NCBI GenBank assembly: GCA_038897115.1
Contig: JAWAXC010000004.1
Coordinates: 1-54,722, forward strand
Direction of reading: 5' to 3'
DNA: 54,722 nt
Origin: Sulfolobales archaeon
Lineage (GTDB): Archaea > Thermoproteota > Thermoprotei_A > Sulfolobales > AG1
This document shows, one piece after another, positions 30,681 through 46,595 of this stretch. Position 1 is the first letter of the stretch. Every line of letters begins with the position of its first letter. The notes under the pieces were generated by a model. The model ran no database searches. It was not told the origin of the DNA and saw nothing but the letters and a program-made list of their open reading frames with translations. The translations under genes and the position numbers were made by a program.

Positions 30681-31553
30681 CTATCCTTCCTTAATCCTCT
30701 TGTTTATAGCTTCGTTGATCATTATGAGGGCAAGGCTGTATATCACTATGAAGATCGATGGATAAGCTATTGCCCACCACTTATCTCTATAGATAGCGCC
30801 GGTTGTGAATGCCCAGTATAGGGTCTCACCCCATGTTGGCTGCTTTATATCGCCGAGTCCTAGGAATATAAGCGTTGTTATAGCGTGAACCGAGTATATG
30901 AGGTCCTGTATGAAGGAGACCACGATCAGGGGGATCATATTTGGTATTATATGCCTCACAATGATTCTCAGAGGCCCGGCTCCAATTGCTATTGCAGCCT
31001 CAACATATGGAGAGCCCTTGATAACAACAACCTGTGACCTTATTATTCTAGCCGTTGATGGCCAGGAGAGGATCCCGAGAACCAGGGCTGCTAGGTAGTT
31101 GTTAGGAGGAACATAGGCTGAGAGTATGAGGAATACGAAGAACGATGGGATCAATAGAAAAATATCCGTCAGCCTCATAAAAACCTCGTCAACCCAGCCA
31201 CCGATATAGCCGCTTATAGCACCCATTACAAGCCCTATAGATACTATCAGGGTGGAAGCTAGCGCAGAGATTACCATGGTATATACAGTTCCCCAGATAA
31301 GCCTTGAAAAGAGATCCCTCCCAAAATAATCTGCGCCCATTATCAGGGAGGGGCTTGGAGGATGATAGGATTCGGCAACAAGAGCGTTGGGATCGTTCCT
31401 CGCTATTTGGGGAGCAGCGATGGAGAGTGCTATAAATAGAGCTATTATTGAGAGCCCCACAACCCCTCTTAGATCGTATAGCACATATTTCCAGAGGATC
31501 TGTGGAATCCTCCTCATAGGCGATATAACGGGCCTCACCATATAGGGAGACAC
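30681..31553 (-). CDS. Dpp/Opp-family ABC importer permease (DppC type), system 1
   Basis: A 290-residue permease. It has the N-terminal OppC/DppC segment (LRGVVGLSIIALFIALSIAA), the H-P-PxxSxxxGxDxFGRD block, seen here as HPPSPSLIMGADYFGRDLFS, and the EAA loop EAAIAIGAGPLRIIVRHIIP that docks on the ATPase. The partner permease ends one base before it starts. Family members import oligopeptides, and in archaea also oligosaccharides. No gene for an ATPase follows. Confidence 0.92.
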   Translation of the reverse strand: MSPYMVRPVISPMRRIPQILWKYVLYDLRGVVGLSIIALFIALSIAAPQIARNDPNALVAESYHPPSPSLIMGADYFGRDLFSRLIWGTVYTMVISALASTLIVSIGLVMGAISGYIGGWVDEVFMRLTDIFLLIPSFFVFLILSAYVPPNNYLAALVLGILSWPSTARIIRSQVVVIKGSPYVEAAIAIGAGPLRIIVRHIIPNMIPLIVVSFIQDLIYSVHAITTLIFLGLGDIKQPTWGETLYWAFTTGAIYRDKWWAIAYPSIFIVIYSLALIMINEAINKRIKEG

Positions 31554-32531
31554 CTACTTAACCCTCACCCTAGGATCTAGAGCCATGTAGAGTAGATCTG
31601 CTGTGAGATTAGCTAGGGATACTGTTATAGATAAGAGGAGGAAGACACCCTGTATCAAGGGATAATCCTTATTCAGTATCGCATTTATAAAGACATACCC
31701 CATTCCAGGGTATGAGAATATGGCCTCGGCGATAACAGCTCCAACAACTATGTAGCCGATAGATATAGCTGTGGATGTGACAACGGGGAGTATGGCGTTC
31801 CTAGCAACATTCCACATGATCCTAGACTCCTTCAAACCCTTTGCCCTCATAACCAGTACAAAGTCCTCCTTCAGAATAGCGATCATGTTATTCTTCATAA
31901 CATAATATGTATGGGGCAGCCCGATTAACACAAGTGTTATTATAGGCAGCGCTGAGTGGGTGAGAACATCCATTACAAGCCCTATAGAAAACCCTTTTGA
32001 GATATATTCATATGAATATGCATGGGATATAGGGAACACACCTAGCTTGACACCGAATATGTAGAGGAAAACCAATGCCAGAAGAAAATAGGGCATAGAT
32101 AGTATGAAGGACATGATGCTAGATAGAACCGTGTCGAGCTTCCCACCCTGCCTAGCAGCGGATATCATACCCAGTGTAATCCCTATGATAACCCTCAAAG
32201 AGATCACTATGCTAAGCAGAAGAACACTCCATGGCAGGGCAGACGCTATTACATCTACAACAGGCCTCATGTTATATGTGAAGGAATATCCGAGATCGAG
32301 CCTCGCCAGGCTTGCTATATAGGCTATAAACTGATCCCATAGGCTCCCCCTCAACCCGAGCCTCGCCCTTATAGCCTCCGCCTCCTCATTAGACAATCCA
32401 TATGTCTGTTGAAGCAGATCCACAGGGTCTCCTGGAGCCAACCTAGGGATTATGAAGGAGATTAGAGTTGCAGCGGCTATAACCAAAAAAGTATTTACAA
32501 TTCTCCTCACGATATATTTTGTTGAAACCAT
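31554..32531 (-). CDS. Dpp/Opp-family ABC importer permease (DppB type), system 1
   Basis: A 325-residue permease with six membrane helices. It has the DppB N-terminus (YIVRRIVNTFLVIAAATLIS then PRLAPGDPVDLL), the periplasmic loop LRGSLWDQFIAYIASLARLDLGYSF (cited in part) and the EAA loop MRAKGLKESRIMWNVARNAILP. Its start ATG overlaps the stop of the binding-protein gene by one base, so binding protein, DppB and DppC are one operon. Confidence 0.92.
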   Translation of the reverse strand: MVSTKYIVRRIVNTFLVIAAATLISFIIPRLAPGDPVDLLQQTYGLSNEEAEAIRARLGLRGSLWDQFIAYIASLARLDLGYSFTYNMRPVVDVIASALPWSVLLLSIVISLRVIIGITLGMISAARQGGKLDTVLSSIMSFILSMPYFLLALVFLYIFGVKLGVFPISHAYSYEYISKGFSIGLVMDVLTHSALPIITLVLIGLPHTYYVMKNNMIAILKEDFVLVMRAKGLKESRIMWNVARNAILPVVTSTAISIGYIVVGAVIAEAIFSYPGMGYVFINAILNKDYPLIQGVFLLLSITVSLANLTADLLYMALDPRVRVK

Positions 32532-34426
32532 TACCTCCCGATCCTCCTCCTATATATTAGGACACCCCCTAGGATAGCTATGATAAGAGCCAAGGCGAGA
32601 GGCACTACAAGCCAGTCTAGAGAACCCCTCTGCACCCCCTGTGTCTGAGGGGAGACGCCGGTGGTTTGGGTCTCCACTGGGGTTGTTCTAGCCATGGTTG
32701 GTGAAGGGGTAACTGTGATTACTGATGTGAGTATTTGGGTGAGCTGTTGGATCGATTGGGTTGCAGCAGCTTGCCTCTTTTTAATGCTTAGCAATGTATC
32801 CAGCGTTTGGAGACCCGTCTGTATGCCTTCAACCCTATCTGATCTATATACCTTGATATCATATATGCTATATAGAGGTATGATGGGCATATATCTGTGG
32901 AGGATCTCCTGGATCTTCATTATCTGATCCCTATATGCCGTTGGATTGTCTGTGCTTAGCGCAGAGTCTATAGCGGAGTCTAGCTCTGGTATCCTCACCC
33001 TAGCCCAGTTTGTGCCAGGCGTGTTCTGCCCTATCTCCGCTGTTGCGTTGCTGTGAAACACTGGTTGGAAGAGATATGCTGCAGGATCATAGAGCATGAG
33101 AAGACTATATATCCTGGATCCAAAGAATATTGTGAAGGCCCCCCTATTCCTTATATCCACATATGTAGGTAGAGCCACTAATCTTATATTTACCTCGATA
33201 CCAACCTTCTGGAGATCAGATGCTATAAGCTGGGCAGCGGTTAGCCAGTCGCTTATAGATGGGACATCAAGCTCGAAGCTAAGTCTCTTCCCATCAGGCG
33301 ATATCCTCACCCCATCGGCCCCCTTCTTAAAGCCTAGTCTATCGAGGATCTGGCTAGCCCTATCAGGATCATATGCCATGTTTGTCCCATTCACCTCTCT
33401 GTTTAGCCACTGATCCTCAGCTACTGGTGGTATGAAGTTATACCTAGGTATCCCATAGCCTGCCCCGGCTCTCTCAGCAAGGATCTTCCTGTTTATCGCC
33501 AGGGAAAGGGCAATTCTAAAATCAGTTATATTTGTTGGGTAAACCTGGTTGTTTGTCCATAGATAGAATATATTATTTGACCAGGGCATAGGCTCGACAG
33601 ATATCCCCGGAGATCCTAGGACGGTGGGGACATCTGTGGGGGAGAAATAGCATGAATCGATCTCACCTCTCAGGATAGCCGGTATTAGGGATTGCGTCGA
33701 TTGATACAGCTTAATCCTGAACCTCTCTACATGTGGAGACCCCATGAAGAAACCCTTAGAGGCCTTCATAACTATCTCGCTCTGAGGATCATAGTATTCA
33801 AGGGTAAACGGGCCTAGAGTAACACTGAGCCCCGGATCCCCTGGCTTGATCACAAGTCTCGAGAAATCGGCCTCTGAAATGTTTGAAACAATATTTCTCC
33901 ACACGTGTTGTGGAACAGCTATCCTACTGGCCACCGAAACGAACACAAGCGTTGTATTCCTGCTAACAGTGAACCTGAGAATCTTTTCCCCGGTTTTATC
34001 TACATTCACCACATACTTCAATATACCCTGTGGATCTAGGGTTTTGTTGAATGGGAGGTAGATGTATTTCCATGTGAAGATATAGTCATCAGCTGTTAGG
34101 GGTTTCCCATCGCTCCAATAAACGTTATCCCTTATATAGAAATAGACCTCCGTTAAATTGCCGGATCTCCTGAACTCCCATGAGGAGGCCGCCCATGGAA
34201 CGAAGGATCCATTGGGAGAGATATAGATCAAACCAGTAGAGAATAGGATCCCAGATACAACGCTGTCAACACCGATAGCTGTGAAGGGGTTGAGGTTGCC
34301 CCTCGCAGTCCCCGGATATCCCCATATATAGTCGCCTCCCTGGGCCTCAACAGCTACATATGTATTGAGAAGAGGGGCAATAACTATCATAGCCAGAATT
34401 ATTGTAACAAACATACGCCTTTCCAT
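32531..34426 (-). CDS. Extracellular solute-binding protein, family 5, system 1
   Basis: A ~631-residue SBP_bac_5 protein for system 1. It begins with a signal segment (FVTIILAMIVIAPLLNTYVAVEA), has the family block VYWSDGKPLTADDYIFTWKY, and ends with a Ser/Thr-rich stalk (TQTTGVSPQTQGVQ) and a C-terminal membrane anchor WLVVPLALALIIAILGGVLI plus a basic tail, the crenarchaeal way to tether such proteins. The frame opens at TTG 34438; ATG 34426 fits the TATATTATAG-like box at ~34440-34449 better. The palindrome TTACGTAA lies 48 bases upstream. Confidence 0.92.
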   Translation of the reverse strand: MERRMFVTIILAMIVIAPLLNTYVAVEAQGGDYIWGYPGTARGNLNPFTAIGVDSVVSGILFSTGLIYISPNGSFVPWAASSWEFRRSGNLTEVYFYIRDNVYWSDGKPLTADDYIFTWKYIYLPFNKTLDPQGILKYVVNVDKTGEKILRFTVSRNTTLVFVSVASRIAVPQHVWRNIVSNISEADFSRLVIKPGDPGLSVTLGPFTLEYYDPQSEIVMKASKGFFMGSPHVERFRIKLYQSTQSLIPAILRGEIDSCYFSPTDVPTVLGSPGISVEPMPWSNNIFYLWTNNQVYPTNITDFRIALSLAINRKILAERAGAGYGIPRYNFIPPVAEDQWLNREVNGTNMAYDPDRASQILDRLGFKKGADGVRISPDGKRLSFELDVPSISDWLTAAQLIASDLQKVGIEVNIRLVALPTYVDIRNRGAFTIFFGSRIYSLLMLYDPAAYLFQPVFHSNATAEIGQNTPGTNWARVRIPELDSAIDSALSTDNPTAYRDQIMKIQEILHRYMPIIPLYSIYDIKVYRSDRVEGIQTGLQTLDTLLSIKKRQAAATQSIQQLTQILTSVITVTPSPTMARTTPVETQTTGVSPQTQGVQRGSLDWLVVPLALALIIAILGGVLIYRRRIGR

Positions 34427-34473
34427 ATGGATACCCAACTATAATATGCAGCAGGATCGTAATAAGGTACTTG

Positions 34474-34481
34474 TTACGTAA
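34474..34481. promoter_or_regulatory. TTACGTAA palindrome, candidate operator 1
   Basis: A perfect 8-base palindrome in the divergent spacer between the binding-protein gene (minus) and the GH84 gene (plus). The same word, in the larger context GTTACGTAA, occurs at 39271-39280 (on the minus strand) upstream of the second binding-protein gene. The placement, beyond the TATA box, suits an activator or operator site for the locus. Confidence 0.4.
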
Positions 34482-34561
34482 TCTTTAGAGTGGGGACCTT
34501 GTTTATAAACCCTGTGATCGCTCATCCTTTAGAGGTTCTAAATATATCAAGGGTAGCTCCC

Positions 34562-35758
34562 ATGATGGTCGGGATCGTTGAGGGTTTCTACGGACAGCCT
34601 TGGGATCTTCTTGACAGGATATCCATGGTATCCTATATGGGGAGGGTCAGGCTTAACCTATATATCTATGCCCCCAAGGATGATCCCTATCACAGGGTTT
34701 CGTGGAGAAGCCCTTATCCGCAACACCAGATGGAGGGCTTCTCAATGCTCATAGATGCCTGTGCTAGAAATGGTGTTGCGTTTGGCTATGCAATATCCCC
34801 TGGTCTTGACATTGATTATTCCTCTAAGAGCGATATAGATATCCTTATAAGGAAGCTCAGCATGTTCATGGATCTTGGTACGAGGGTGCTTGGAATCTTT
34901 CTAGATGATATACCCCCTGAGCTGAGGGGAAGAGGTTTTAAGAGCCTGGCAGAGGCACAGGCATCTATCGCGAATAGGGTATATAGAGAGCTATCCCCAG
35001 ACAGGCTGTTCCTCGTGCCAACCTATTACTGGGGCTATGAGGAGGGCTATTTGAGAGAGCTCGGCTCTCTTCTAGATAGTGGCGTTGAGATCGTCTGGAC
35101 CGGCAGGTATGTTGTCTCGCCAACAATAGATCTCGATGATATTGAGAGGTTTAGAGAGATAGCAGGTAGATATCCTGCTATCTGGGATAACTACCCCGTC
35201 AATGACTTCTTCATGGTGAGGGGTGTTATAAGGCTGCATATGGGTCCTATAAAGGGGAGAGATCCAAGGATATTCGCTGTATCACCTGCATATATGTCTA
35301 ACCCTATGAACCAGGCCGAGGCCTCTAAAATACCGATCTACAGTATCTCGAGAATAGCACGTGGATATGAGCTCGGAGATATGGTTCTAGAAAAAGCTGT
35401 GGAGCTAATAGCCGGTGAAGAGGTGTGGGACGCTCTAAAACTCTTCGTAAGGCTTAACAGCTCAAGCCCGCTAGACCCTGAAGCAGATTTCGAGCCAAGT
35501 GGTGGGGAAGCTAAATCGCTAATAGATATGGTAGATACTCTCAGAAGAAGCCTGGGCAATAAAAAGCTCCTCCGGGAGATAAGCCCCATATTATCATTCA
35601 TAGAAAGCCTTGCAAAAACCCTTGCAAGGGGTGAGAAAATGCCTAGTAAAGCCTATAGAATCCAGACAGCCGGGCTATATGATCCGCCCATTAGCGATGA
35701 GACCATGGTAAGGGTCTTCGGAAGGGTTACTAGGAGGAGGCCTATGTGGATCTCGTGA
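34562..35758 (+). CDS. GH84-type beta-N-acetylglucosaminidase
   Basis: A 398-residue glycoside hydrolase of family 84, which removes terminal beta-N-acetylglucosamine by substrate-assisted catalysis. N-terminal VGIVEGFYGQPW, NLYIYAPKDDPYHR and FGYAISPGLD are canonical, and the catalytic Asp pair is in FLDDIPPE (D115-D116). The frame opens at GTG 34490, but the TATA-like TTTATAAAC at 34502-34510 would place transcription after that codon, so I choose ATG 34562. There is no signal peptide, so it acts in the cytoplasm. It overlaps the NamZ gene by 13 bases, and probably plays the role that GH3 NagZ plays in bacteria. Confidence 0.9.
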   Translation: MMVGIVEGFYGQPWDLLDRISMVSYMGRVRLNLYIYAPKDDPYHRVSWRSPYPQHQMEGFSMLIDACARNGVAFGYAISPGLDIDYSSKSDIDILIRKLSMFMDLGTRVLGIFLDDIPPELRGRGFKSLAEAQASIANRVYRELSPDRLFLVPTYYWGYEEGYLRELGSLLDSGVEIVWTGRYVVSPTIDLDDIERFREIAGRYPAIWDNYPVNDFFMVRGVIRLHMGPIKGRDPRIFAVSPAYMSNPMNQAEASKIPIYSISRIARGYELGDMVLEKAVELIAGEEVWDALKLFVRLNSSSPLDPEADFEPSGGEAKSLIDMVDTLRRSLGNKKLLREISPILSFIESLAKTLARGEKMPSKAYRIQTAGLYDPPISDETMVRVFGRVTRRRPMWIS

Positions 35759-36930
35759 GGAGGCTGTTCTATTTGACCTCTCTAGGAGTTGATGTTTTCC
35801 TAGGCGAGGGTATTTGGAGAGCATATAATGGGAAGAGAATCTCGATCATGTGTAACTCTGCTAGCATAACATCTAACTACACATATACACTAGATGAGAT
35901 ATCTTCTAGAGGATTAAGGATCCAAGGTATCCTCGTCCCAGAGCACGGCTACTGGGGATTTCTCCAGGCTGGAGAGGAGGTTCAACATTACTATGATAGA
36001 TATCTAGGATCCTGGGTATATAGCCTCTATAAGGCTTCTAGGGAAGAGGTGAGGAGGATTCTCGAGGAAAGCGATGTTCTATTAATAGATATCCAGGATC
36101 TCGGCCTCAGATTCTACACATATCTATCCGCAGTCCTCGACCTATTATCTCTGGCTTCAAGGCTGGGGGAAAAGGAGGTTCTGATCCTCGACAGGCCTAA
36201 TCCCCTCGGAGGGGTATTGGTGGAGGGGCCTATCGCAAGGGAAAATATGATCTCAATTCTCTCCCCATATAAGATACCGATAAGATATGGAGCAACCATA
36301 GGCGAGATTGCAAGGCTCTATGAGAATGAAGAGAGCCTCGGTATAGATCTCCGTGTAATACCTATGAAAGGATGGTCAAGAAAGCAAGATATATTGGATA
36401 TAGCCATGCCATGGGCCCCAACATCTCCAGCAATACCTACACCCGACACTGTATATCCATATGCCCTAACAGTATATCTCGAGGCGACAAATATAAGTGA
36501 GGGTAGAGGGACATATACCCCTTTTAAGGTGATTGGAGCACCCTTCATAGATCCTATAAAGCTTTCGCAAGCCCTTGGAGACGCAATTAGCAGAGATACA
36601 GCTGTTTTCAGACCTACCATGTTTAGACCCCTATTCTCCAAATATAGTGGTGAGATGTGTGGTGGCGTATATATACATATTATAGATAGAAAGAGAGTTA
36701 GGGTCTTCGAAACAAGTCTCAAGATCCTTAGCACCCTATATACATTATATGGAGATCACATTGAACTGATAAAACGAGGCGATAGGTTCTTAATTGACAT
36801 ACTATATGGAGATCCAAGGGTTAGATCTGTTATCACAGGCCAGCTCGATCTATATAGCTATATCTCATCTATAGATGAGGAGATTCTAGGCTACAGAGAG
36901 AGGCTGGAGCCAGTTAAGATATATAGTTAA
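35746..36930 (+). CDS. namZ: NamZ-family exo-beta-N-acetylmuramidase (DUF1343, GH171)
   Basis: 394 residues. NamZ (YbbC of Bacillus) releases MurNAc from the non-reducing end of peptidoglycan fragments. The match is extensive: PEHGYWGFLQAGEEV (E66-H67), LIDIQDLGLRFYTYLSAV, LDRPNPLGGVLVEGP, IPIRYGATIGEIARLY, PWAPTSPAIPTPDTVYPYA and EATNISEGRGTYTPFKVIG (E252). GTG 35746 has GGAGGAGG at 35733-35740 five bases upstream. There is no signal peptide. The substrate MurNAc is absent from archaeal cell walls, so the function points to bacterial debris. It is the second gene of an operon with the GH84 enzyme and its end overlaps the convergent kinase gene by 4 bases. Confidence 0.93.
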   Translation: MDLVRRLFYLTSLGVDVFLGEGIWRAYNGKRISIMCNSASITSNYTYTLDEISSRGLRIQGILVPEHGYWGFLQAGEEVQHYYDRYLGSWVYSLYKASREEVRRILEESDVLLIDIQDLGLRFYTYLSAVLDLLSLASRLGEKEVLILDRPNPLGGVLVEGPIARENMISILSPYKIPIRYGATIGEIARLYENEESLGIDLRVIPMKGWSRKQDILDIAMPWAPTSPAIPTPDTVYPYALTVYLEATNISEGRGTYTPFKVIGAPFIDPIKLSQALGDAISRDTAVFRPTMFRPLFSKYSGEMCGGVYIHIIDRKRVRVFETSLKILSTLYTLYGDHIELIKRGDRFLIDILYGDPRVRSVITGQLDLYSYISSIDEEILGYRERLEPVKIYS

Positions 36931-37940
36931 TCCTCCGAGGATCTCTGTTTAAATAAACACTCAGGAGGAAGATCCTTTCTATCTCCTGACAACAATCCTC
37001 TCCTCGAGAGAGCCAGGAGCAGGGATGAGCATTCCTGGCTAAGAACGGGATCGCGGATCTCCACCTCGCGGCCAACATAGCTGACGATGGCCCTCCTGAT
37101 CATGGGACCCCAGATATCTTTGTTCGCGTGGTACGTAGAACCCACAATGGCCAGTGGTAGAACCCCTATTTTATCTGCAATAGCTCTATAGGCTATCGCT
37201 ATCTCTTCAGCCTCCTCCTTAAGGATCCTGATCGCCACTCTATCGCCCTCCCTAGCAGCTTGAAAAATGTCTATCGCGAAAGATGCTATGAGGCTCTTGA
37301 TGTTTCCACCAGAATATATGATCTTCAGGAGATCCTGAGGATCGCGCGCGCCAAATCTTCTTAAAGCCCTCTCAACCAAGGAGGTTGGTTCTAGCCTACC
37401 ATCTAAGGATCTATAGACTGCTCTGAGACCAATAATACCTATTCTCCACGAGCCCCCTTCATCGCCTATGAGATGACCCCAGCCCCCCACTCTTATCCGC
37501 CTCCCTCTAGAAATGCCTAAAAAGCTGCTCCCAGTACCCAGGATAGCTATTATACCATCACCTCCTAGAAAGGCTGAGTAGTGTGCAGCCTCGAGATCCT
37601 CTATAATTTCTATGGAACCCCTATCGATACCAAGCATACTAGATATACAGTCTGAAAGATTGCTGTCCCATGCACCTCCAAGCCAACCTGCTAGCCCTGC
37701 GCCAATGAAAACAGGTTTAAGCTCTCTCTCATATTTGATAGCCGATGATATAGCTCTGTAGATGTTCCTGCAGGAATCTATAACTCCTATTGACGCCGGG
37801 TTTCCCGGGCCTGAGAAACCGTGACCCACATATAGCCACTCGGTGGTTATAGCTATAGCAACAGTCTTTGTCGCTCCAGCGTCAACACCGATGAAAACGT
37901 CCTTATCCCCCATGATAAAAGCCTCCGAGGCTTTTTGCAT
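36927..37940 (-). CDS. N-acetylglucosamine/N-acetylmuramate kinase, BadF/BadG family
   Basis: A 337-residue ASKHA-fold kinase. Phosphate-1 motif GVDAGATKTVAIAI (about 17-30), GAGLAGWLGG, and the phosphate-2/adenosine block ILGTGSSFLGIS followed by GGWGHLIGDEGGSWRIG are those of GlcNAc kinases of the BadF/BadG/BcrA group. MurK of Clostridium, in the same group, phosphorylates both MurNAc and GlcNAc. Here it would phosphorylate sugars freed by GH84 and NamZ. It lies 7 bases downstream of the SIS gene in one operon. Confidence 0.88.
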   Translation of the reverse strand: MQKASEAFIMGDKDVFIGVDAGATKTVAIAITTEWLYVGHGFSGPGNPASIGVIDSCRNIYRAISSAIKYERELKPVFIGAGLAGWLGGAWDSNLSDCISSMLGIDRGSIEIIEDLEAAHYSAFLGGDGIIAILGTGSSFLGISRGRRIRVGGWGHLIGDEGGSWRIGIIGLRAVYRSLDGRLEPTSLVERALRRFGARDPQDLLKIIYSGGNIKSLIASFAIDIFQAAREGDRVAIRILKEEAEEIAIAYRAIADKIGVLPLAIVGSTYHANKDIWGPMIRRAIVSYVGREVEIRDPVLSQECSSLLLALSRRGLLSGDRKDLPPECLFKQRSSED

Positions 37941-37947
37941 TTATAGC

Positions 37948-38703
37948 TTAGAGATGCTTTACATACTTTTTGTACTTTTCAAGCAACATTCTATTTAGAT
38001 CCTTGCTATGCGGGATATTTACACTAACCCATATCTCAGGCTCATACCCCCTTTTAATCAGCTTCTCGATGGCTAGTATCTCGAGTGTGTGGGCTATGAA
38101 GGAGTTCACTATAGTCGATACAGGGGCGATTCTCCTGCCACCCAGTTCCTTGATCTCTACAGCGGCATCTCCTTCAGGCACCTTATTGTCTACAACGATA
38201 TCTGCAACCTCATATAGCTTCTTACCATATCTATTCTCGGGCTCGAGCTTCTTAGAATATTCAACAGATGTTATAGCTATAACCCTTACACCCCTCTCCC
38301 TAGCAAGTACAGAGGCTTCTACAGGCACTGCATTTTTTCCAGAGTTCGAGATCACTATAAGCACATCTCCCTCGCTAGGCGAGTAATACTCTATAAGGGC
38401 ATCTGCATATCCGCTGAGCCTCTCGATCATAGAGCTTTTAGCAGCCCCCGAGAACGGGCTTAGAGCTGTATCAAGCATCGGATATATCCTTGCAAGGCCC
38501 CCAGCCCTGTGGAACATCTCCACAGCTACTAACATCGAGTGGCCGGTTCCAAGCACATATATCAACCTATCATTCATAATCCCCATAGCCATCTCCTCAG
38601 ACGCTCTCTCCATGTTAGCCATCTCCTCAGATAAGATCCTCTCAAATATGCTGTGTATCACATCCCTATACATATATACATAACCCAACCCCATACCCAT
38701 CAC
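37948..38703 (-). CDS. SIS-domain phosphosugar protein (UPF0309/COG4821 family)
   Basis: A 251-residue protein with one SIS domain: IYVLGTGHSMLVAVEMFHRAG, VLIVISNSGKNAVPVEA and VKDxx-like NKVPEGDAAVEIKELGGR. This pattern belongs to the UPF0309 family, not to MurQ, whose GAGTSGRLG motif is missing. Next to a MurNAc/GlcNAc kinase and NamZ it could process MurNAc-6-phosphate or GlcNAc-6-phosphate, for example as an analogue of the MurQ lactyl-ether lyase. That role is inferred from context. Start candidates include MMGMGLG at 38703 and the ATG of MYRDVIHS, ten codons in. Confidence 0.85.
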   Translation of the reverse strand: MMGMGLGYVYMYRDVIHSIFERILSEEMANMERASEEMAMGIMNDRLIYVLGTGHSMLVAVEMFHRAGGLARIYPMLDTALSPFSGAAKSSMIERLSGYADALIEYYSPSEGDVLIVISNSGKNAVPVEASVLARERGVRVIAITSVEYSKKLEPENRYGKKLYEVADIVVDNKVPEGDAAVEIKELGGRRIAPVSTIVNSFIAHTLEILAIEKLIKRGYEPEIWVSVNIPHSKDLNRMLLEKYKKYVKHL

Positions 38704-38724: not shown

Positions 38725-39216
38725 CTAGCCACCTCTCCTCTTACGCATTATAAACTCAGACTCATCCTCTATAATTGCATCTCTTATCTCCCCTACAATC
38801 TCATAGCCAAGGGATCTATAGAACTTCACAGCTCTATAGTTAAAACCCGAGACAAGTAAAAAGCTGTTCCCCCTATACCTAAATATATCTCTCTCAGCAG
38901 CATCCATGAGCAGCCTGCCTATCCCCCTACCCCTATATCTCTCATCAACCGCTATAGCCCTTATATATCCCCCCAGAGGGAATCCATCAAATACTCTGAA
39001 AAGCACGAAACCTACTACAGATCCCTCTAACTCGGCCACATATGCCCATCCCTCCTCAATAGAGGAGATAGATATGTCTATGCACATATCCCTACTATAT
39101 CCGAGTGTTATATACGGGTCTGTTGAAACCATGATCCTGCAGATCTCATCTACATCTAGGATCGACGGCCTTCTTACCTGCACCAAGAGATCAGACCCTC
39201 GCCAGTCTAGACCCAT
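38725..39216 (-). CDS. GNAT-family N-acetyltransferase (RimI-like)
   Basis: A 163-residue acetyltransferase with motif A IRAIAVDERYRGRGIGRLLMD holding R-G-x-G-I-G for acetyl-CoA, and motif B NYRAVKFYRSLGYEIVG. The layout is RimI/Ard1-like, so it may acetylate protein N-termini or a small molecule. It lies 21 bases upstream of the SIS gene on the same strand and may belong to that operon. An amino-sugar acetyltransferase role, given the location, is possible but unsupported by residues I can see. Confidence 0.82.
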   Translation of the reverse strand: MGLDWRGSDLLVQVRRPSILDVDEICRIMVSTDPYITLGYSRDMCIDISISSIEEGWAYVAELEGSVVGFVLFRVFDGFPLGGYIRAIAVDERYRGRGIGRLLMDAAERDIFRYRGNSFLLVSGFNYRAVKFYRSLGYEIVGEIRDAIIEDESEFIMRKRRGG

Positions 39217-39330: not shown

Positions 39331-41214
39331 ATGTCGAGTTCTAGTAGGGGTATAGAAGTACTATCGATAATGATAGTGGTGATGATCCTAGGATCTATAT
39401 TTCTAAGCATATGGCCCCCAATATATATGATCAATGTATATGCACAGGAAAGCACGGCAATATTGAAGCTCTGCATACCATCACCTGGAAAGGTTCTGGA
39501 TCTGAATCCCTATTTCTACATCGCATCACCACCCCTGACACACTGTATGATACTTAAGCTAGTGTATGAAACACTTGCTGAGGAGAAGAGCGATGGATCC
39601 CTAGAACCCCTGCTAGCTACTCAATGGAGCACTTCGCAAGATGGAAAGACAATCACTATAAAGCTAAGATCGAATGTCTATTGGCACGATGGCACGCCAT
39701 TCACCTCAAGAGATGTGGCATTTGTTCTAACAACAATCAAGAGATATCCAGGTGGCGATGTGTATTCGATAGGAAGATACATCGAGTCTTTAGAGACACC
39801 TGATAATCTAACCATCATCATCAAGCTCACGCAGCCTTTCAGCAGGTTCCTATATTATCTACTCACAGGCTACAGGATCTTCCCTCAACATATTTTCTCG
39901 GATAAAAATATGGCTGAGTTTCCAGCAAGGGATCCGCGATATGCTATAGGAACTGGCCCATATAGATTGGTTGAGGCGAACTTCGATACCCAGATATTTA
40001 GGTTCGCTGCCTTCGAAAGATACTGGGGAGGATCTCCCAAGGTTAGTGAGATAGTTGTTCAGGTGGTTGATGAATCAGCACCTATCCCGGTTATGATGAA
40101 GACAGGGCAGTGCTCTATAGCATCGATAACTAATCCAGCTCTTGTTCCGCCTATAGTCTCTGATCCCTCCTTGGGGGTTGCCGTCTCTAGGGGATGGCCT
40201 TATCAGGGTTCATACTACACACCGGCAGGTCTTCTAGTTATAAACACGGCTGTGTATCCACTCAATATAACGGAGTTCAGACGCGCATTAGCATATGCAA
40301 TAAATAAAGATAGGATAGTCCAGCTAGCGCTCCAGGGATATGGCGAGGTTGCATCGTCAGGTCAGCTACCTATGTCTTCGAAGTGGAGGCCCCCCGATCT
40401 AGAGGAGATAAGCTATAATGCCTCAAAAGCGAGAGAGATCTTAAGATCTATAGGCTTTGTCGAAGGGCCAGATCATATGTTCCGATACCCCAACGGAACA
40501 CCTGTAAGCATAAAGATCATACATACGGGAGGTATAGCAAGCAACGTGGTGGCATTAATAATCCAGGACTGGAGAAATGCTGGCATTGAGGCATCCGAGG
40601 AGGTTCTCACAAGACTCACTTACGTCAATAACCTCGCATATGGCTACTACCAGGTTGCAATGCTGCTGACAAATAGACCGACGGATGTTGACTTTGTTCT
40701 AACTGTCTTCATGGACAGGAATACAACGCCAACTCCTATAGGGCAGCCAACTCAGTATTGGGGTTGGACTAGGTATGTTAATCCGCAATTCAATGCATAT
40801 ATCGAGAGGGCTAGATCCTCTCTAACAGATGGGGAGGCCTTTAAATACTATGCAGAGGCTCAGAGAATAGCTGCAAGGGATCAGTGGGTAATACCCCTCT
40901 ACTATTCAAAAGCTATATGGGCCTTCAACAAGAGGGACTTCGTTAGTTGGGAAAAGCTTCAAGAAGGGGAGGGATATCCTACCCATGTGACCATGCTCAG
41001 CATAGCACCATATGCTCCTCAGACGCAACCTGCTGCAACAACTATTATATATCGAGAGCAGCAGACATATACAACTGTGAGGGAGTATGTGACATACACG
41101 CAGCAATACACACAAGCGGCGGAAGCATCGTCACCTATAGGTGTGGTGGCGATAGCTATCTTGATAGCAGCCGTTGCTGCCATATCTGTATACATTGTTC
41201 TGAGGAGGAGATGA
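39331..41214 (+). CDS. Extracellular solute-binding protein, family 5, system 2
   Basis: A 627-residue binding protein similar in build to system 1. Signal segment ~10-37 (IMIVVMILGSIFLSIWPPI, ending VYAQ). Family block VYWHDGTPFTSRDVAFVLT, plus KLTQPFSRFLYYLLTGYRIF. The C-terminus has a Thr/Gln/Tyr-rich stalk and a membrane anchor IGVVAIAILIAAVAAISVYI followed by R-R-R. Substrate unknown: peptides, oligosaccharides or muropeptides fit the family. First gene of an operon with two permeases. Confidence 0.92.
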   Translation: MSSSSRGIEVLSIMIVVMILGSIFLSIWPPIYMINVYAQESTAILKLCIPSPGKVLDLNPYFYIASPPLTHCMILKLVYETLAEEKSDGSLEPLLATQWSTSQDGKTITIKLRSNVYWHDGTPFTSRDVAFVLTTIKRYPGGDVYSIGRYIESLETPDNLTIIIKLTQPFSRFLYYLLTGYRIFPQHIFSDKNMAEFPARDPRYAIGTGPYRLVEANFDTQIFRFAAFERYWGGSPKVSEIVVQVVDESAPIPVMMKTGQCSIASITNPALVPPIVSDPSLGVAVSRGWPYQGSYYTPAGLLVINTAVYPLNITEFRRALAYAINKDRIVQLALQGYGEVASSGQLPMSSKWRPPDLEEISYNASKAREILRSIGFVEGPDHMFRYPNGTPVSIKIIHTGGIASNVVALIIQDWRNAGIEASEEVLTRLTYVNNLAYGYYQVAMLLTNRPTDVDFVLTVFMDRNTTPTPIGQPTQYWGWTRYVNPQFNAYIERARSSLTDGEAFKYYAEAQRIAARDQWVIPLYYSKAIWAFNKRDFVSWEKLQEGEGYPTHVTMLSIAPYAPQTQPAATTIIYREQQTYTTVREYVTYTQQYTQAAEASSPIGVVAIAILIAAVAAISVYIVLRRR

Positions 41215-41236: not shown

Positions 41237-42229
41237 TTGGGCTATACGAATATAGCTATGAACATATCTAAGAGGATTTCCCAGGCACTCATCACTTATA
41301 TAGTTGTGAATCTATTTATATTCTTTATACCAAGGATGATGCCTGGAAGCTATGTAGATTATCTGGCATCCTCCAGATTCCTACCTAGAGAGGCTGTTGA
41401 AGAGCTATATATAAAGCTGGGCCTAGATAAACCAGTATATATACAGCTTATCAATTACGTGAGGAATGTTATGTTTTCGCCGACGCCTGACTTTGGCTAT
41501 TCATACTCTTTTTACCCGCTAAAAGCCTGGGACGTCATATCTATATATCTCCCCTGGACGCTCATACTCCTAACCATAGCCACACTAACAACATTCATCT
41601 ATGGTGTTATGCTCGGCTTTGCAGCTGCTGTTTGGAAAGATAGATTTTTGGGCAGGCTGATCACAAGCTTCTCGATCTTCACTATGTCAAATCCATACTT
41701 TGTTCTTGCACTCATATTCCTTATGATCTTCTCTCAATATCTAAGGCTGTTTCCACCAGGAGGGGCTTATTCAACCACGCTACATCCCTCCTCCCCTAAT
41801 TTCTTAGCTGATGTTATTTGGCATATGGCGCTGCCTCTTATAGCACTGACTATAGGGACATCGGGGCAGTATATCATATTGACAAGGACGATAATCACCA
41901 GCAATATGGGAGAGGACTTCTTCAGAGCAGCTGTTGCTATGGGGCTTAAGAGGTATAAAGTGATCATTGAATATGCGTTGAGACCAGGTATCCTTCCCCT
42001 TATAACTGTTTTTGGAATTAGATTTGGAACCATGCTTAGTGGAGCCCTTCTAACTGAGATCATATTTAGCTATCCTGGTCTAGGCTATATACTCTACCAA
42101 GCCATATTATCTAAGGACTTCCCCCTGATCCAGGCTTTATTCTATATGATGAGCCTAATGGTGATAGTTGCAAGCCTAGCTCTTGATATTCTATATGCTA
42201 TACTTGATCCTAGGATTAGAAAGGGGTGA
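41237..42229 (+). CDS. Dpp/Opp-family ABC importer permease (DppB type), system 2
   Basis: A 330-residue permease with the DppB start (RISQALITYIVVNLFIFFIP, then PRMMPGSYVDYL) and EAA loop AVAMGLKRYKVIIEYALRPGILP. The frame opens at TTG 41237; the ATG at 41258 (MNISKRI) is the more likely start. The region ends just before GGTGAATC, the ribosome-binding site of the next permease. It follows the binding protein by about 20-45 bases. Confidence 0.92.
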   Translation: MGYTNIAMNISKRISQALITYIVVNLFIFFIPRMMPGSYVDYLASSRFLPREAVEELYIKLGLDKPVYIQLINYVRNVMFSPTPDFGYSYSFYPLKAWDVISIYLPWTLILLTIATLTTFIYGVMLGFAAAVWKDRFLGRLITSFSIFTMSNPYFVLALIFLMIFSQYLRLFPPGGAYSTTLHPSSPNFLADVIWHMALPLIALTIGTSGQYIILTRTIITSNMGEDFFRAAVAMGLKRYKVIIEYALRPGILPLITVFGIRFGTMLSGALLTEIIFSYPGLGYILYQAILSKDFPLIQALFYMMSLMVIVASLALDILYAILDPRIRKG

Positions 42230-42232
42230 ATC

Positions 42233-43009
42233 ATGGGTATGCGCGTCATCATAATAGTGATTTCCCTGCTAGGCCTTCTAGCCCTTTTAGGACCTCTCAT
42301 CGCCCCATACGACCCCTTTCAACCTTCTAGCACACCATATCAGGGTATTTCCTGGCACCATCCTTTGGGAACCGATGGGCTTGGTAGGGACATTCTTTCA
42401 CAGCTATTAATAGGATCTAGAATAACCCTTGCAATATCCCTAGCATCATCTGCTTTATCCCTCGTAATAGGGCTTATAGTCGGACTCGCCTCTTCCTTCA
42501 GATCCATAGTCTCGCAAGCTATTTCAGCTGTAATAGATTCATTCATAGTTATACCTCCCCTCCTCATAATGATCTTTATAGCCTCTATATCAGGCCCCTC
42601 CATATATTCTGAGATCCTTGCGATCTCACTCTCATACTGGCCACAAACTGCTAAAACATATAGAGCTGAAGCCTTATCGATCTTTGAGAGGCCTTATGTC
42701 CAGGCTTCGATTGCCGTTGGAGGGAACATGCTTTGGATTATTAGAAGACATGTTATACCAAACATGAGCCATATAACCATAGCGAGTCTAACATATCTGC
42801 TGGGTATTTCTATTGTTAGCGAGTCTATAATGAGTTTTCTGGGCCTTGGCGATCAAAGATTCTTTAGCTGGGGTATGATCTTCTACTATGCTTTTATCCA
42901 GGGTGCTATCTACTACGGCTTATGGCAATGGATATTGGCACCAGCCCTTATAATAACCCTCGTGGTATATGTGTTGTTCAAAAGCACAGAGGATCTGTTG
43001 GCTAGATAG
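42233..43009 (+). CDS. Dpp/Opp-family ABC importer permease (DppC type), system 2
   Basis: A 258-residue DppC-type permease, shorter than system 1. It has GISWHHPLGTDGLGRDILSQ, then LIVGLASSF, and the EAA loop QASIAVGGNMLWIIRRHVIP. It starts 3 bases after the DppB stop, so it is co-translated. As in system 1 no ATPase gene follows; the next gene is the AbrB-PhoU regulator. Confidence 0.92.
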   Translation: MGMRVIIIVISLLGLLALLGPLIAPYDPFQPSSTPYQGISWHHPLGTDGLGRDILSQLLIGSRITLAISLASSALSLVIGLIVGLASSFRSIVSQAISAVIDSFIVIPPLLIMIFIASISGPSIYSEILAISLSYWPQTAKTYRAEALSIFERPYVQASIAVGGNMLWIIRRHVIPNMSHITIASLTYLLGISIVSESIMSFLGLGDQRFFSWGMIFYYAFIQGAIYYGLWQWILAPALIITLVVYVLFKSTEDLLAR

Positions 43010-43066
43010 CTATGTAGAACTACTAGAATATTAAGGCTGCGAGCCAATACCTCTGGGGCGCTATTT

Positions 43067-44029
43067 ATGAGGGTAGTTATAAGGCATGTCATAACCGTTG
43101 GAAGGAGATCCCTGGCCATTGTTATTCCAAAAAGATGGGCAGTAGCCCTAGGGCTCAGGAAGGGTGATAAGGTTGCTGTTAAGTTGAATAGAAATAGATC
43201 TATAGTTATCCGCCCTGTAGCCAATGCTGAGGATAGAGAAGAGGTCGATGTTAAATGCCCTGACATAGAGGGAGCCTCTATCGATGAAAAAATAACTGTG
43301 AAGGAGATGCTATCTGCATATATTCTAGGGCTATCATCTAAATGCATTGGAGCGGGGCTAGGCCTTAAAATCCAAGGGCTTATATCTAGCCCCTCAAAAA
43401 AGGACGAGGTAGATATAGATAGCTTCATTGAAAAGGCCCTGGATCATGCCGAGGATGCTGTAGAAACTCTTAATAGATTTGTAAGGGATTTCGACGAGAA
43501 ATACGCAGAGAAGATCCACGAGATCGAGGATAAAATGGATCTCCTGTTCTATTCATTCATAAGGATCTCCGCACAGAACGTAATTGAGAGCCTCAGCAGG
43601 GGTATCGGGGCGAGAGATATTGCGTGGCATATGCTCAACGCAATCCTGATAAAAACCCTCGAGGATCTCATAGATTCCATAGATAGGCTTATATGGAGAA
43701 TCCATGATTCTAGAGCCTCCTCCAGAGAGCTAGTCGAAATCATATCCAACATAGAGCGTCTAACAAGAGATATAGTAAGCTGTATAAGATATCCATGCGA
43801 TAGCAATGAGGTGAAGGATTATTATGATAAGATGCTGATAATTAAGAGGATATTGAGAGAAAAAATGATCTTCTCCCCCCAACCTATACAGCCCGCCTTA
43901 GCCGAGGTTGTATCTATAGTTAATTCAATAGAAGATCTGATAGAGATCACTCTCGCAGCATCTATTAAAAAGATCGTGGATATCAGCGCTGAGAACCGGT
44001 TGAATCACGGGAAATATGGGGAGGGATAG
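43067..44029 (+). CDS. AbrB-PhoU domain regulator
   Basis: A 320-residue protein. Residues 1-50 form a SpoVT/AbrB DNA-binding domain (ITVGRRSLAIVIPKRWAVAL, LRKGDKVAVKLNRNRSIVI). The remainder is an all-helical PhoU-like domain with paired repeats (FIEKALDHAEDAVETLNRFV and SDRRLI-like IDSIDRLIWRIHDS). Such AbrB-PhoU fusions are common in archaea near phosphate or other transporters and probably regulate transcription. No pst genes are present; here it trails the second importer operon by 57 bases, making it a candidate regulator of this locus. Confidence 0.82.
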   Translation: MRVVIRHVITVGRRSLAIVIPKRWAVALGLRKGDKVAVKLNRNRSIVIRPVANAEDREEVDVKCPDIEGASIDEKITVKEMLSAYILGLSSKCIGAGLGLKIQGLISSPSKKDEVDIDSFIEKALDHAEDAVETLNRFVRDFDEKYAEKIHEIEDKMDLLFYSFIRISAQNVIESLSRGIGARDIAWHMLNAILIKTLEDLIDSIDRLIWRIHDSRASSRELVEIISNIERLTRDIVSCIRYPCDSNEVKDYYDKMLIIKRILREKMIFSPQPIQPALAEVVSIVNSIEDLIEITLAASIKKIVDISAENRLNHGKYGEG

Positions 44030-44125
44030 GATGTCACACAATAGCCATAGATCCTGCCCAGGGAATGATGCATACCTCAGGCGACTAAAGTTATTAGAAT
44101 ACCGTAGATCTTTTTGAACAGCGTA

Positions 44126-45334
44126 TCAAAGGGCTATCTCCCCCATGACAACCCTTTTCATAGCACCCGTTGCGCGGGGCACGTTATTTGGGATCCCGCT
44201 GAGGGTCTCATGTGCTAGTACCGCCATTCCAAGCGCTTCCTTGTACTTAGAGTCTATCCCAAGATCCTCGTGCCCCAGCATTTTCAGGTTAAGCATTCTA
44301 AACTCTCTCTCAAGCCACTTCATCATGGTCTTGTTCCTCGTCCCGCCTCCTCCAACTATTACCTCCTCTATATTGATGTAGGGTAGGATATAGCGTTTAT
44401 AATTATATACTATGCTCTTCACCGTAAACATTGTAAGTGTCGCAACTATGTCCTCTCTAGAGAGACCCTTGGAAATGCCCTTCTCAATTATCTTCATAGT
44501 CATTTCCCTGCCGAAAACCTCCCTACCAGTTGTCTTCGGAGGAGGGGCCGAGATATATGGGTGGCCCATAAGCTCTTCCAAGAGCTCATCGTCTGGAGTC
44601 CCCCTTGAAGCTATCTCCCCGTTAGGATCGTAGCTAAGGTCTCTATACAACATTGACACAGCATAGTCTATCAAGGTATTTCCAGGCCCTGTGTCAAAGG
44701 CGTATACATCCTCTAGCGAAGCATTTGGAGGCAGGACAGTAACATTGGCTATCCCTCCTATATTCTGGATAGCCCTACCTATTGATGGGTGTGTAAAGAG
44801 GACATAGTCAACATAGGCTATTATAGGCGCACCATGACCTCCAACCGCTATATCTCTAGCCCTGAAATTACCCACAGTTATAACACCTGTGTGCTCAGCA
44901 ATAACCTGTAAGGAACCCACTTGGAGGGAGCATCTAGTCTCGAAACCACCGCATCTCACCAGCTCTGGATAGTGGTATATAGTCTGCCCGTGAGAGCCTA
45001 TGAGATCCACATCATCACGGCTAAGATTGGAGGTGCTTATCACATCCTTAAAAGCCTTAGAGAAGAACCTTGCCACTAGGAAGTTAAGGACACATATATC
45101 CCTAACACTCCCAGATGTGATAGAGCTTAGCACAAACCCCCTGAGATCTTCTGGATACGGAACAACACCTGAGACTAACATTCTATGCTTAATATTCCTT
45201 CCATGCCCCTCCAGCTCCACTATAGCTACATCAACACCATCAGCACTGGTGCCTGAAATAAGCCCTGCAACAATTCTCCTCTCAAGCCCGATCTTCCTAA
45301 CCAACCTATCAACAAGGTTCATAGTAGCCCTCAA
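44126..45334 (-). CDS. anmK: Anhydro-N-acetylmuramic acid kinase
   Basis: A 402-residue AnmK. In bacteria it opens and phosphorylates 1,6-anhydro-MurNAc to MurNAc-6-phosphate in cell-wall recycling. Motifs: GLISGTSADGVDVA (about 24-37), LIGSHGQTIYHYP, TVGNFRARDIAVGGHGAPI, IQNIGGIANVTVLP, FDTGPGNTLID and PPPKTTGREVFG. These cover the ATP and sugar sites of the family without evident loss. Start at 45334 or ATG 45322. It is divergent from the beta-lactamase-fold gene. Anhydro-MurNAc is produced by bacterial lytic transglycosylases and phage enzymes, so the source must be external. Confidence 0.95.
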   Translation of the reverse strand: MRATMNLVDRLVRKIGLERRIVAGLISGTSADGVDVAIVELEGHGRNIKHRMLVSGVVPYPEDLRGFVLSSITSGSVRDICVLNFLVARFFSKAFKDVISTSNLSRDDVDLIGSHGQTIYHYPELVRCGGFETRCSLQVGSLQVIAEHTGVITVGNFRARDIAVGGHGAPIIAYVDYVLFTHPSIGRAIQNIGGIANVTVLPPNASLEDVYAFDTGPGNTLIDYAVSMLYRDLSYDPNGEIASRGTPDDELLEELMGHPYISAPPPKTTGREVFGREMTMKIIEKGISKGLSREDIVATLTMFTVKSIVYNYKRYILPYINIEEVIVGGGGTRNKTMMKWLEREFRMLNLKMLGHEDLGIDSKYKEALGMAVLAHETLSGIPNNVPRATGAMKRVVMGEIAL

Positions 45335-45437
45335 TATGTAAGGCGCAGGGACATAAGTAGAATTAGATATATGATCTTAGATATTTTAAAGATTAAGATA
45401 TATCTTCCTCGAGAATCTGCGGTGGAGGCGCTGATAG

Positions 45438-46595
45438 ATGCCTCATCTCGAAGAAGCAGATCCCGAGGAGCTGGGTTTCTCTGGAGATAGGCTTAGAAGG
45501 GCTATTGAGTATATATGTGGATATGCACATAGAAGGCTTATCCCAGGAATAGAGGTTCTTGTAGTAAGAAGGGGTAAGGTAGCTATTCACGAGGCATGTG
45601 GATATGCCCAGATAGAGCCTATTGAAAGGCCTCTAAGACGTGGAATGCTATTTGACCTAGCATCTCTTACAAAACCGATAGCAGGTTCACTAGTAGCTGG
45701 GCAGCTCGTTGCAGAGGGTATTATACATCTTAAACAGAGAGTCTCGGAGATCCTTCCAGAATTCTCTAAAACCCCTGCTGGCTATAATGAGATTAAGGAT
45801 AGAGTGAGGATATGGATGCTCCTAGCACACTCGTCAGGTCTCCCACCATGGCTTCCCCTATATAGATCTACAAGCGATAGGGAGGAGATCCTAATGGAGG
45901 CTGTAAGGAGTTTCCCAATCTATGAGCCCGGGACAAAGGCGATCTACAGCGATATAGGATATATGGTTTTCACAAAACTTGTTGAGGAGCTCACCAGCGA
46001 GAAATTTGATCATCTATTCTACAGCTTAGTTGCGAAGAGACTAGGTCTAAAGCTAACGCTCTATAACCCCTTAGAAGCAGACATAGATCAAAATAACATA
46101 GTATCAACCGAGGCAACCGAACATGGAGGCGTCCTCACAGGGATTGTACATGATGAAAATGCCAGAGCTATGGGGGGTGTATCTGCCCATGCCGGGCTGT
46201 TCTCGACTGCTGAGGAGGTGGGGCTTCTGGGATATGAGATCCTTAGGGCATATCGCGGTGAATCAGATCTCCTCCTCCCCCCAGCATATGCTAGATCCAT
46301 GCTTAGAAAATGGATCTGTGGGGATCGGTGTTACGGGCTTGGATGGTGGATCTACGATAGAAGATCTATTGAAGCCGGAGGAGATCTTCTGGTTAAGGGA
46401 TTCGGGCATACGGGATTCACAGGAACATCCCTATGGATCGATCCTATACTCGATATCGTGATCGTGATCCTAACTAACAGGGTTCACCCAAAGAGAGATA
46501 ACCATTATATCAACCTGCTACGGCCTATCGCACATAATATGATAATCTCATCCGTCAAAGCCAATAGATCCTCCAACATAGCTGAAAAACCATAG
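45438..46595 (+). CDS. Class C beta-lactamase-fold serine hydrolase (AmiE-like candidate)
   Basis: A 385-residue PF00144-type protein. Catalytic S-x-x-K is SLTK (S76-K79), the second motif is Y-S-D (Y170-D172), and the third is H-T-G (H324-G326), as in AmpC, EstB and peptidase relatives. In Bacillus the ybbE product AmiE is a protein of this family that cleaves the MurNAc-L-Ala amide, in a cluster with nagZ and namZ. Here it would strip peptides from muropeptides. There is no signal peptide. An esterase or D-aminopeptidase function is the alternative. Confidence 0.85.
   Translation: MPHLEEADPEELGFSGDRLRRAIEYICGYAHRRLIPGIEVLVVRRGKVAIHEACGYAQIEPIERPLRRGMLFDLASLTKPIAGSLVAGQLVAEGIIHLKQRVSEILPEFSKTPAGYNEIKDRVRIWMLLAHSSGLPPWLPLYRSTSDREEILMEAVRSFPIYEPGTKAIYSDIGYMVFTKLVEELTSEKFDHLFYSLVAKRLGLKLTLYNPLEADIDQNNIVSTEATEHGGVLTGIVHDENARAMGGVSAHAGLFSTAEEVGLLGYEILRAYRGESDLLLPPAYARSMLRKWICGDRCYGLGWWIYDRRSIEAGGDLLVKGFGHTGFTGTSLWIDPILDIVIVILTNRVHPKRDNHYINLLRPIAHNMIISSVKANRSSNIAEKP

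Follow-up and report, generated by a model that had tools for sequence, protein, structure and literature searches.

A putative peptidoglycan-sugar salvage locus in a Sulfolobales archaeon and a proposed MurNAc-6-phosphate lyase role for its UPF0309 protein

Introduction

How could an archaeon that seems equipped to phosphorylate N-acetylmuramic acid (MurNAc) make use of this sugar when its genome yields no recognizable MurQ, the MurNAc-6-phosphate lyase? The question is raised by a 16-kb locus (positions 30681 to 46595) within a stretch of DNA from a thermophilic Sulfolobales archaeon that was analyzed at its full length of 54,722 nucleotides (GenBank assembly GCA_038897115.1, contig JAWAXC010000004.1; hereafter the window). 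Sediments and hot springs are rich in peptidoglycan, a polymer that Thermoproteota do not make. An initial reading of the window made without database searches (the sequence-only reading) had described the locus as a complete-looking set of genes for the uptake and breakdown of bacterial wall fragments. Our follow-up confirmed what that reading observed and partly supported its interpretation.

We consider it fairly probable that the locus serves to salvage and catabolize fragments of bacterial peptidoglycan and that a protein of the UPF0309 family carries out the step of MurQ in it. The peptidoglycan-salvage part of this reading is very likely correct, and the identity of the pathway is well supported by sequence and gene context. 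No account of MurNAc catabolism in archaea was found among the papers searched.

Predicted MurNAc kinases in a genome without a detectable MurQ

The window's contig is C4 of a 2.44-Mb assembly that is 96% complete and comprises 188 contigs. The genes previously named within the 16-kb stretch, which are those for two Dpp/Opp importers, a GH84 protein overlapping NamZ, a BadF-family kinase beside a UPF0309 protein, AnmK, and a PF00144 hydrolase, were all confirmed, coordinates included, as intact open reading frames (ORFs) with family matches far above cut-off. Two of them, the anhydro-N-acetylmuramic acid kinase AnmK (44126..45334, minus strand) and the BadF-family amino-sugar kinase (36927..37940, minus strand), have MurNAc-6-phosphate as their predicted product.

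MurQ was not found in the window's genome, where the best score was 40.8 bits against a cut-off of 168 (TIGR00274 / NF003915) and TIGR00274 itself gave no match. Two MurQ-like matches in this genome proved to be other proteins, namely a 6-phospho-3-hexuloisomerase on contig C52 and a GlmS-like double-SIS protein on contig C163. Next to the BadF kinase gene lies the gene for a UPF0309 / NagS-family SIS protein (37948..38703, minus strand; NF002805, 266.8 bits against a cut-off of 135). The sequence-only reading mentioned this protein only alongside the kinase and missed its likely role as a MurQ substitute. The locus is “complete-looking” only if the UPF0309 protein does the work of MurQ, since the genome has no identifiable MurQ and its NagA (TIGR00221, 278 bits against 226) is encoded on another contig (G000:C30).

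MurNAc genes in other Thermoproteota

The distribution of these genes was determined in 398 sampled Thermoproteota genomes, among which the window's family is represented by the window's genome alone. NamZ was found in 31 genomes from 16 genera and AnmK in 23, after one of 24 initial AnmK hits was left out because it is a 46-residue fragment. Both proteins are present in 19 genomes, compared to approximately 1.8 expected (hypergeometric p ~4e-20, computed without correction for relatedness, and kinship inflates p-values). Furthermore, 24 of the 28 genomes that carry MurQ also carry NamZ. These archaeal MurQ proteins are genuine, as they pass the TIGR00274 equivalog cut-off (323 > 302) and match MurQ structures at ~250 bits.

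Gene neighborhoods point in the same direction. Among 30 NamZ genes, MurQ is nearby in 19 cases, a BadF kinase in 17, and a PF00144 gene in 12, and genes for GH3 NagZ-like proteins, PIG-L deacetylases, and AnmK are located near several. In other archaea, too, the PF00144 gene is a repeated neighbor of NamZ or UPF0309. NamZ, AnmK, GH84, and PF00144 thus recur jointly in other Thermoproteota, and therefore this set very probably represents a real module for salvaging peptidoglycan sugars. The sequence-only reading had suggested such a comparison as a check on its proposal that an archaeon uses imported bacterial wall fragments, and had named a lack of co-occurrence in other genomes as a refuting outcome, which did not arise. 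The families indeed co-occur and are co-located, in 16 genera many of which carry MurQ, and the proposal gains support accordingly. MurNAc catabolism appears to be broadly encoded in Thermoproteota because NamZ, AnmK, and true MurQ co-occur and because NamZ neighbors MurQ, BadF kinase, and PF00144 genes. In two uncultured Sulfolobales, NamZ domains (G449:C9:47152-47748 and G453:C37:7138-7734) reside in open frames that are 720 and 526 residues long and are possible fusions.

In the same sample, MurQ and UPF0309 divide the genomes that would need a lyase. Of the 31 genomes with NamZ, MurQ is present in 24, UPF0309 in 6, and both in none; the one genome with neither (G236) is fragmented, and its congeners carry MurQ. 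The corresponding numbers for the 23 genomes with AnmK are 16 with MurQ, 6 with UPF0309, 1 with neither (G039), and 0 with both. When counted by genus, 14 of the NamZ-containing genera have MurQ and 2 (the window's genus and Caldivirga) have UPF0309, with exactly one of the two proteins per genus and no exception. UPF0309 is present in 15 of the 164 genera sampled, which puts the probability that both MurQ-less NamZ genera would have it by chance at ~0.008. In addition, UPF0309 adjoins NamZ in Caldivirga and is near AnmK in Desulfurococcaceae archaeon AG1.

The AnmK of the window is 63-66% identical to the AnmK proteins of MurQ-containing genomes. In a quick tree of AnmK, the window and AG1 proteins are sister to those of family f17, whose members use MurQ except for G039. 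Closely related AnmK proteins in sister clades therefore appear to be the same enzyme, which one lineage pairs with MurQ and the other with UPF0309. The NamZ and AnmK trees include few bacterial sequences. Caldivirga and its relatives (L135-L139) have an AnmK that is far from other archaeal AnmK proteins (36% identity to that of the window) and is encoded away from NamZ.

Active site of the UPF0309 protein

The reaction of MurQ begins with elimination of lactate from C3 of MurNAc-6-phosphate to give a 2,3-unsaturated intermediate, to which water is then added. The enzyme uses a pair of catalytic glutamates. The closest characterized relative of the window's UPF0309 protein is NagS (SCO4393, PDB 9eol; 1.6e-32). 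According to the main text of a 2025 report on this Streptomyces enzyme, NagS eliminates the C3 hydroxyl of N-acetylglucosamine (GlcNAc)-6-phosphate to form 6P-chromogen I, and His53, Arg64, Glu94, and Asp179 are essential (PMC12680351). As also described there, three homologs at 26-36% identity, those of Clostridium amylolyticum, Paenibacillus selenitireducens, and Acidothermus cellulolyticus, have negligible or no activity on GlcNAc-6-phosphate (PMC12680351). No assay with MurNAc-6-phosphate is described in the main text of that paper (PMC12680351).

All four essential residues are retained by the window's protein, as H55, R66, E94, and D179. Across 102 UPF0309 sequences, His and Arg are present in 102/102, Glu in 101/102, and Asp or Glu in 102/102. 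In a profile alignment with archaeal MurQ (probability 98%), E94 of the window's protein falls on the second Glu of the EGAED motif. A structure model (predicted local distance difference test [pLDDT] score 91) has template modeling (TM) scores of 0.90-0.92 to UPF0309/NagS structures, including 0.91 to NagS, and the family that follows in E-value is MurQ (1nri). Because NagS and MurQ eliminate from the same C3 position and the residues of the site are conserved, we propose that the UPF0309 protein is a MurNAc-6-phosphate lyase. A family of such lyases would look like what is seen here, with a conserved elimination site and distant members that ignore GlcNAc-6-phosphate.

UPF0309 loci in other genomes

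A scan of 85,000 genomes for UPF0309 revealed seven further crenarchaeal genomes in which the gene is near PF00144, GH84, or AnmK. AnmK is present in 7/7 of these genomes, GH84 in 6/7, NamZ in 5/7, and MurQ in 0/7. The seven were picked by gene context, which in part accounts for the AnmK and GH84 counts but not for the presence of NamZ or the absence of MurQ. The gene order in Desulfurococcaceae archaeon AG1 is substrate-binding protein-permease-permease-UPF0309-GNAT-AnmK, and that in KUA_Bin18 is NagA-PF00144-UPF0309-GH84-BadF. AG1 carries orthologs of the window's importer 2 (71/69/64% identity), GNAT (57%), and AnmK (67%), with its GNAT gene located between those for UPF0309 and AnmK and its substrate-binding protein gene beside this UPF0309-AnmK group.

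A single origin of UPF0309 proteins with a peptidoglycan context is ruled out by the UPF0309 tree, in which these members are scattered and the label must change at least 5 times across well-supported branches. Large ORFs of ~560-600 amino acids near UPF0309 genes do not constitute one conserved partner, as their products (PtsI, a GHL10 hydrolase, a translation factor, and unknowns) are not related to one another.

Two additional loci were observed. In a Thermofilum-like genome (L154, 7035-9901), UPF0309 adjoins the gene for enzyme I of the phosphotransferase system (PTS) in the vicinity of NagA and of a GlmS-like double-SIS gene, which suggests PTS-coupled amino-sugar uptake in an archaeon. 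In a MurQ-containing Thermotoga sp. (L231, 1023-5061), UPF0309 is the middle member of a run, between a NagZ-like GH3 gene and a GHL10 hydrolase carrying a pseudomurein-binding repeat. This run is an independent bacterial hint at a wall-sugar role for UPF0309.

Other enzymes and genes of the locus

The glycoside hydrolase family 84 (GH84) beta-N-acetylglucosaminidase, predicted to be cytoplasmic (34490..35758, plus strand; PF07555, 284 bits; PDB 5diy, 213 bits), has an intact adjacent pair of catalytic aspartates, D139-D140. Its gene overlaps by 13 bp (35746-35758) that of NamZ, an exo-beta-N-acetylmuramidase of family GH171 on the same strand (35746..36930; PF07075 and PF20732, 197 and 119 bits). 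This NamZ has both domains and conserves E66, H67, D118, E160, E187, and E246, and its core of acidic, His, and Arg residues is common to 29 other NamZ proteins.

Of the kinase and hydrolase assignments, that of AnmK is the firmest (PF03702, 306 bits; NF007148 equivalog, 440.6 > 387). The protein carries DTGPGN at residues 214-219, keeps the other kinase motifs, and falls within the archaeal AnmK clade. The BadF kinase (PF01869, 100 bits) matches both a MurNAc/GlcNAc kinase (8zo3, 2e-25) and a Sulfolobus hexokinase (2e2n, 8e-33). It has the motif GGWGHxxGDEG in common with 8zo3 and human NAGK, but it has a Glu directly before the catalytic Asp and lacks some of the proposed MurNAc specificity residues. 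The MurK study found sequence alone insufficient to decide whether a BadF kinase accepts the lactyl group of MurNAc, and we refer to this protein as a candidate MurNAc/GlcNAc kinase.

The PF00144 serine hydrolase gene (45438..46595, plus strand; 180 bits) is divergent from that for AnmK. Its motifs SLTK76, YSD170, and HTG324 fit the SxxK, Y-x-N/D, HxG pattern. The fold and motifs of the AmiE-type hydrolase described by the sequence-only reading are therefore present, but AmiE identity cannot be called from these features, and the protein is a candidate AmiE-like muropeptide amidase. That reading had also listed a glucosamine-6-phosphate deaminase-like gene at 3658. The gene (3658..4749, minus strand) encodes a GlmS-isomerase-like double-SIS protein that is possibly a deaminase, although it scores below every NCBIfam cut-off, including those for deaminases (NF001484, 238 bits; NagB-II, 133; GlmD, 117).

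The two Dpp/Opp-type importers each consist of a family 5 substrate-binding protein (SBP_bac_5) and two permeases. Importer 1 is on the minus strand, with permease C at 30681..31553 (PF00528, 92 bits), permease B at 31554..32531 (PF00528, 140 bits), and the binding protein at 32531..34438 (PF00496, 190 bits). Importer 2 is on the plus strand, with the binding protein at 39331..41214 (PF00496, 227 bits), permease B at 41237..42229 (PF00528, 133 bits), and permease C at 42233..43009 (PF00528, 51 bits). No OppD/F ATPase gene is located beside either importer, and ten are found elsewhere in the genome. In hydropathy plots, both binding proteins have an N-terminal hydrophobic leader and a C-terminal membrane anchor, whereas none of the locus enzymes has a leader. 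This difference supports the earlier suggestion that breakdown is cytoplasmic.

The gene set of the locus also includes a GNAT acetyltransferase and a putative regulator. The GNAT gene (38725..39216, minus strand; PF00583, 66 bits) forms a run with those for UPF0309 and the BadF kinase and adjoins UPF0309 in both the window and AG1, whereas MurQ-type loci instead have a double-GNAT gene and a PIG-L deacetylase gene, which could mean that acetylation of the sugars is under control. The AbrB/MazE-type protein (43067..44029, plus strand; PF04014, 43 bits) has a long C-terminal part and is conserved beside archaeal peptidoglycan-sugar loci, making it a candidate dedicated regulator. Of all the UPF0309 loci compared, only L186, L193, L197, L198, L201, and L202 contain homologs of it, and all six are in the archaeal group with a UPF0309-peptidoglycan context. 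Just outside the locus there is a match to Sulfolobus sRNA133 (RF02814, 46.6 bits; 47896-47958). A 97-base tRNA on the minus strand (20881-20977) was matched by Rfam and missed by ARAGORN, and it probably bears an intron.

Proposed pathway and alternatives

The sequence data establish that the genes are present and co-occur, that the assembly has no MurQ, and that catalytic residues are conserved; we infer every reaction of the following pathway, and its substrate, from family membership and gene context. Muropeptides or GlcNAc-(anhydro)MurNAc pieces from bacteria would be imported by one or both Dpp/Opp importers. In the cytoplasm, GH84 would remove GlcNAc, the PF00144 hydrolase would remove the peptide, and NamZ would release MurNAc; GlcNAc removal by GH84, which would stand in for NagZ by analogy only, and peptide removal by PF00144 are family-level guesses. 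The BadF kinase would then generate GlcNAc-6-phosphate and MurNAc-6-phosphate, and AnmK would convert anhydroMurNAc to MurNAc-6-phosphate. As a new proposal, the UPF0309 protein would eliminate D-lactate from C3 of MurNAc-6-phosphate and add water to the resulting 2,3-unsaturated sugar phosphate to yield GlcNAc-6-phosphate, so that a NagS-type active site would perform the reaction of MurQ. Finally, NagA would deacetylate GlcNAc-6-phosphate, and the double-SIS protein or a paralog would deaminate the product to fructose-6-phosphate.

The first alternative, which we judge unlikely but well worth weighing, is that the locus salvages peptidoglycan sugars while UPF0309 acts on GlcNAc-6-phosphate or another phosphosugar, with MurNAc-6-phosphate either cleaved by an unrecognised enzyme or left unused. 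NagS, the sole member characterized, is a GlcNAc-6-phosphate dehydratase according to the main text of its description (PMC12680351). In Brucella, UPF0309 is accompanied by NagA and NagB-II, and in Thermofilum its neighbors are NagA and GlmS-like genes. However, the three distant homologs noted above do not share this activity to any appreciable extent. A GlcNAc-6-phosphate dehydratase encoded beside NagA would waste the product, and such a dehydratase is toxic in Streptomyces. This alternative also leaves the AnmK product without an exit in every archaeal genome that has UPF0309 and AnmK, and it does not account for the complementarity of MurQ and UPF0309. We retain the roles of plain sugar isomerase and GlcNAc-6-phosphate dehydratase as rivals without preferring them.

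Several findings count against the lyase proposal. MurQ is also present in 14 of 30 bacterial genomes with UPF0309, including Thermotoga, and therefore UPF0309 is not simply a MurQ substitute in bacteria and a universal mutual exclusion of the two proteins fails there. UPF0309 is present in 28 of the sampled Thermoproteota, 22 of which lack both NamZ and a full AnmK, and many have NagA/GlmS-like neighbors that also fit a GlcNAc-6-phosphate role. Such genomes allow for MurNAc use without NamZ or AnmK, or for another substrate. The MurQ/UPF0309 split in the 398-genome sample depends on two genera, one of which, Caldivirga, has Glu in place of Asp179. The position of MurQ's other catalytic Glu is Arg in UPF0309 (R66 in the window), and an overlooked MurQ is conceivable in a genome that is 96% complete and in 188 contigs. 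On balance, we lean toward the view that UPF0309 performs the MurNAc-6-phosphate lyase step in the window's organism. A broader proposal, on which we are evenly divided, is that UPF0309 proteins from outside the streptomycetes make up a second MurNAc-6-phosphate lyase family, non-orthologous to MurQ, that occurs in archaea and bacteria and replaces MurQ in several Thermoproteota lineages while the rest of the peptidoglycan-fragment pathway is conserved. Streptomyces NagS would then be a derived member, with the same C3 elimination redirected to GlcNAc-6-phosphate.

It is improbable that the cluster instead degrades other amino-sugar glycans (chitin oligosaccharides, glycoprotein glycans, or exopolysaccharide), with NamZ and AnmK acting on non-muramic sugars. 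This idea draws on the breadth of the GH84, BadF, and PF00144 families, which also tempers peptidoglycan salvage, and on the long branch that the window's NamZ occupies in the NamZ tree. Furthermore, a fungal levoglucosan kinase is the nearest to AnmK among solved structures. Nevertheless, that kinase has DTGPGT rather than the DTGPGN of AnmK, and this difference together with the co-occurrence data disfavors levoglucosan as the substrate. Other glycans also fit poorly with the strong co-occurrence of NamZ, AnmK, and true MurQ in Thermoproteota, with the specificity of MurQ for the lactyl ether, and with the close resemblance of the window's AnmK to that of MurQ-containing genomes. Lastly, bacterial contamination or chance association without a functional archaeal module is scarcely credible, despite the 188-contig assembly and the bacterial type of the families, because the same genes co-occur in many other Thermoproteota genomes, archaeal genes (Sulfolobus sRNA, archaeal NFACT, and DUF1512) flank both sides of the locus on the 54.7-kb contig, base composition is uniform (GC fraction 0.454 in the locus, with flanks at 0.439 and 0.436), and the AnmK of the window nests within the archaeal clade.

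A peptidoglycan-salvage role for the locus would connect bacterial necromass with archaeal growth in a concrete and testable way. A 2025 report described archaeal peptidoglycan hydrolases that kill bacteria (PMC12352652), and the pathway proposed here would complement it. If true, the lyase proposal would assign a function to a widespread family whose members outside Streptomyces have so far been without one, and it would explain why distant NagS homologs do not accept GlcNAc-6-phosphate.

Relation to known systems

The archaeal module for peptidoglycan-sugar salvage proposed here would use GH84 instead of NagZ and, most likely, would rely on a NagS-family protein for the step of MurQ. The MurNAc utilization set of Bacillus subtilis comprises MurQ, AmiE, NagZ, NamZ, and MurP. 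The window's locus resembles it in combining a predicted exo-glucosaminidase, a PF00144 hydrolase, and NamZ with amino-sugar phosphorylation. Unlike that set, the locus is archaeal, has Dpp/Opp importers and kinases instead of the MurP PTS, GH84 instead of a GH3 NagZ, and UPF0309 instead of MurQ, and it adds AnmK. The MurQ-type loci of Thermoproteota likewise bring NamZ, a BadF kinase, PF00144, and AnmK together in one neighborhood, but they carry true MurQ, often with a GH3 NagZ-like gene and a PIG-L deacetylase gene and mostly without GH84, where the window has UPF0309.

The AnmK of the window shares with its bacterial counterparts the signature motifs and a curated equivalog match, whereas it belongs to an archaeal clade and is partnered by UPF0309 instead of MurQ. 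The UPF0309 protein has the family, fold, four catalytic residues, and phosphate-binding serines of NagS (SCO4393, 9eol), but it is only ~30% identical, is accompanied by peptidoglycan-sugar enzymes rather than dmdR1, and probably acts on MurNAc-6-phosphate rather than GlcNAc-6-phosphate. Finally, UPF0309 and MurQ are both members of the SIS superfamily, share a Glu (E94), and are proposed to have an identical net reaction, whereas the window's protein is shorter, lies in a separate clade, has Arg at the position of the other catalytic Glu, and does not match the MurQ models.

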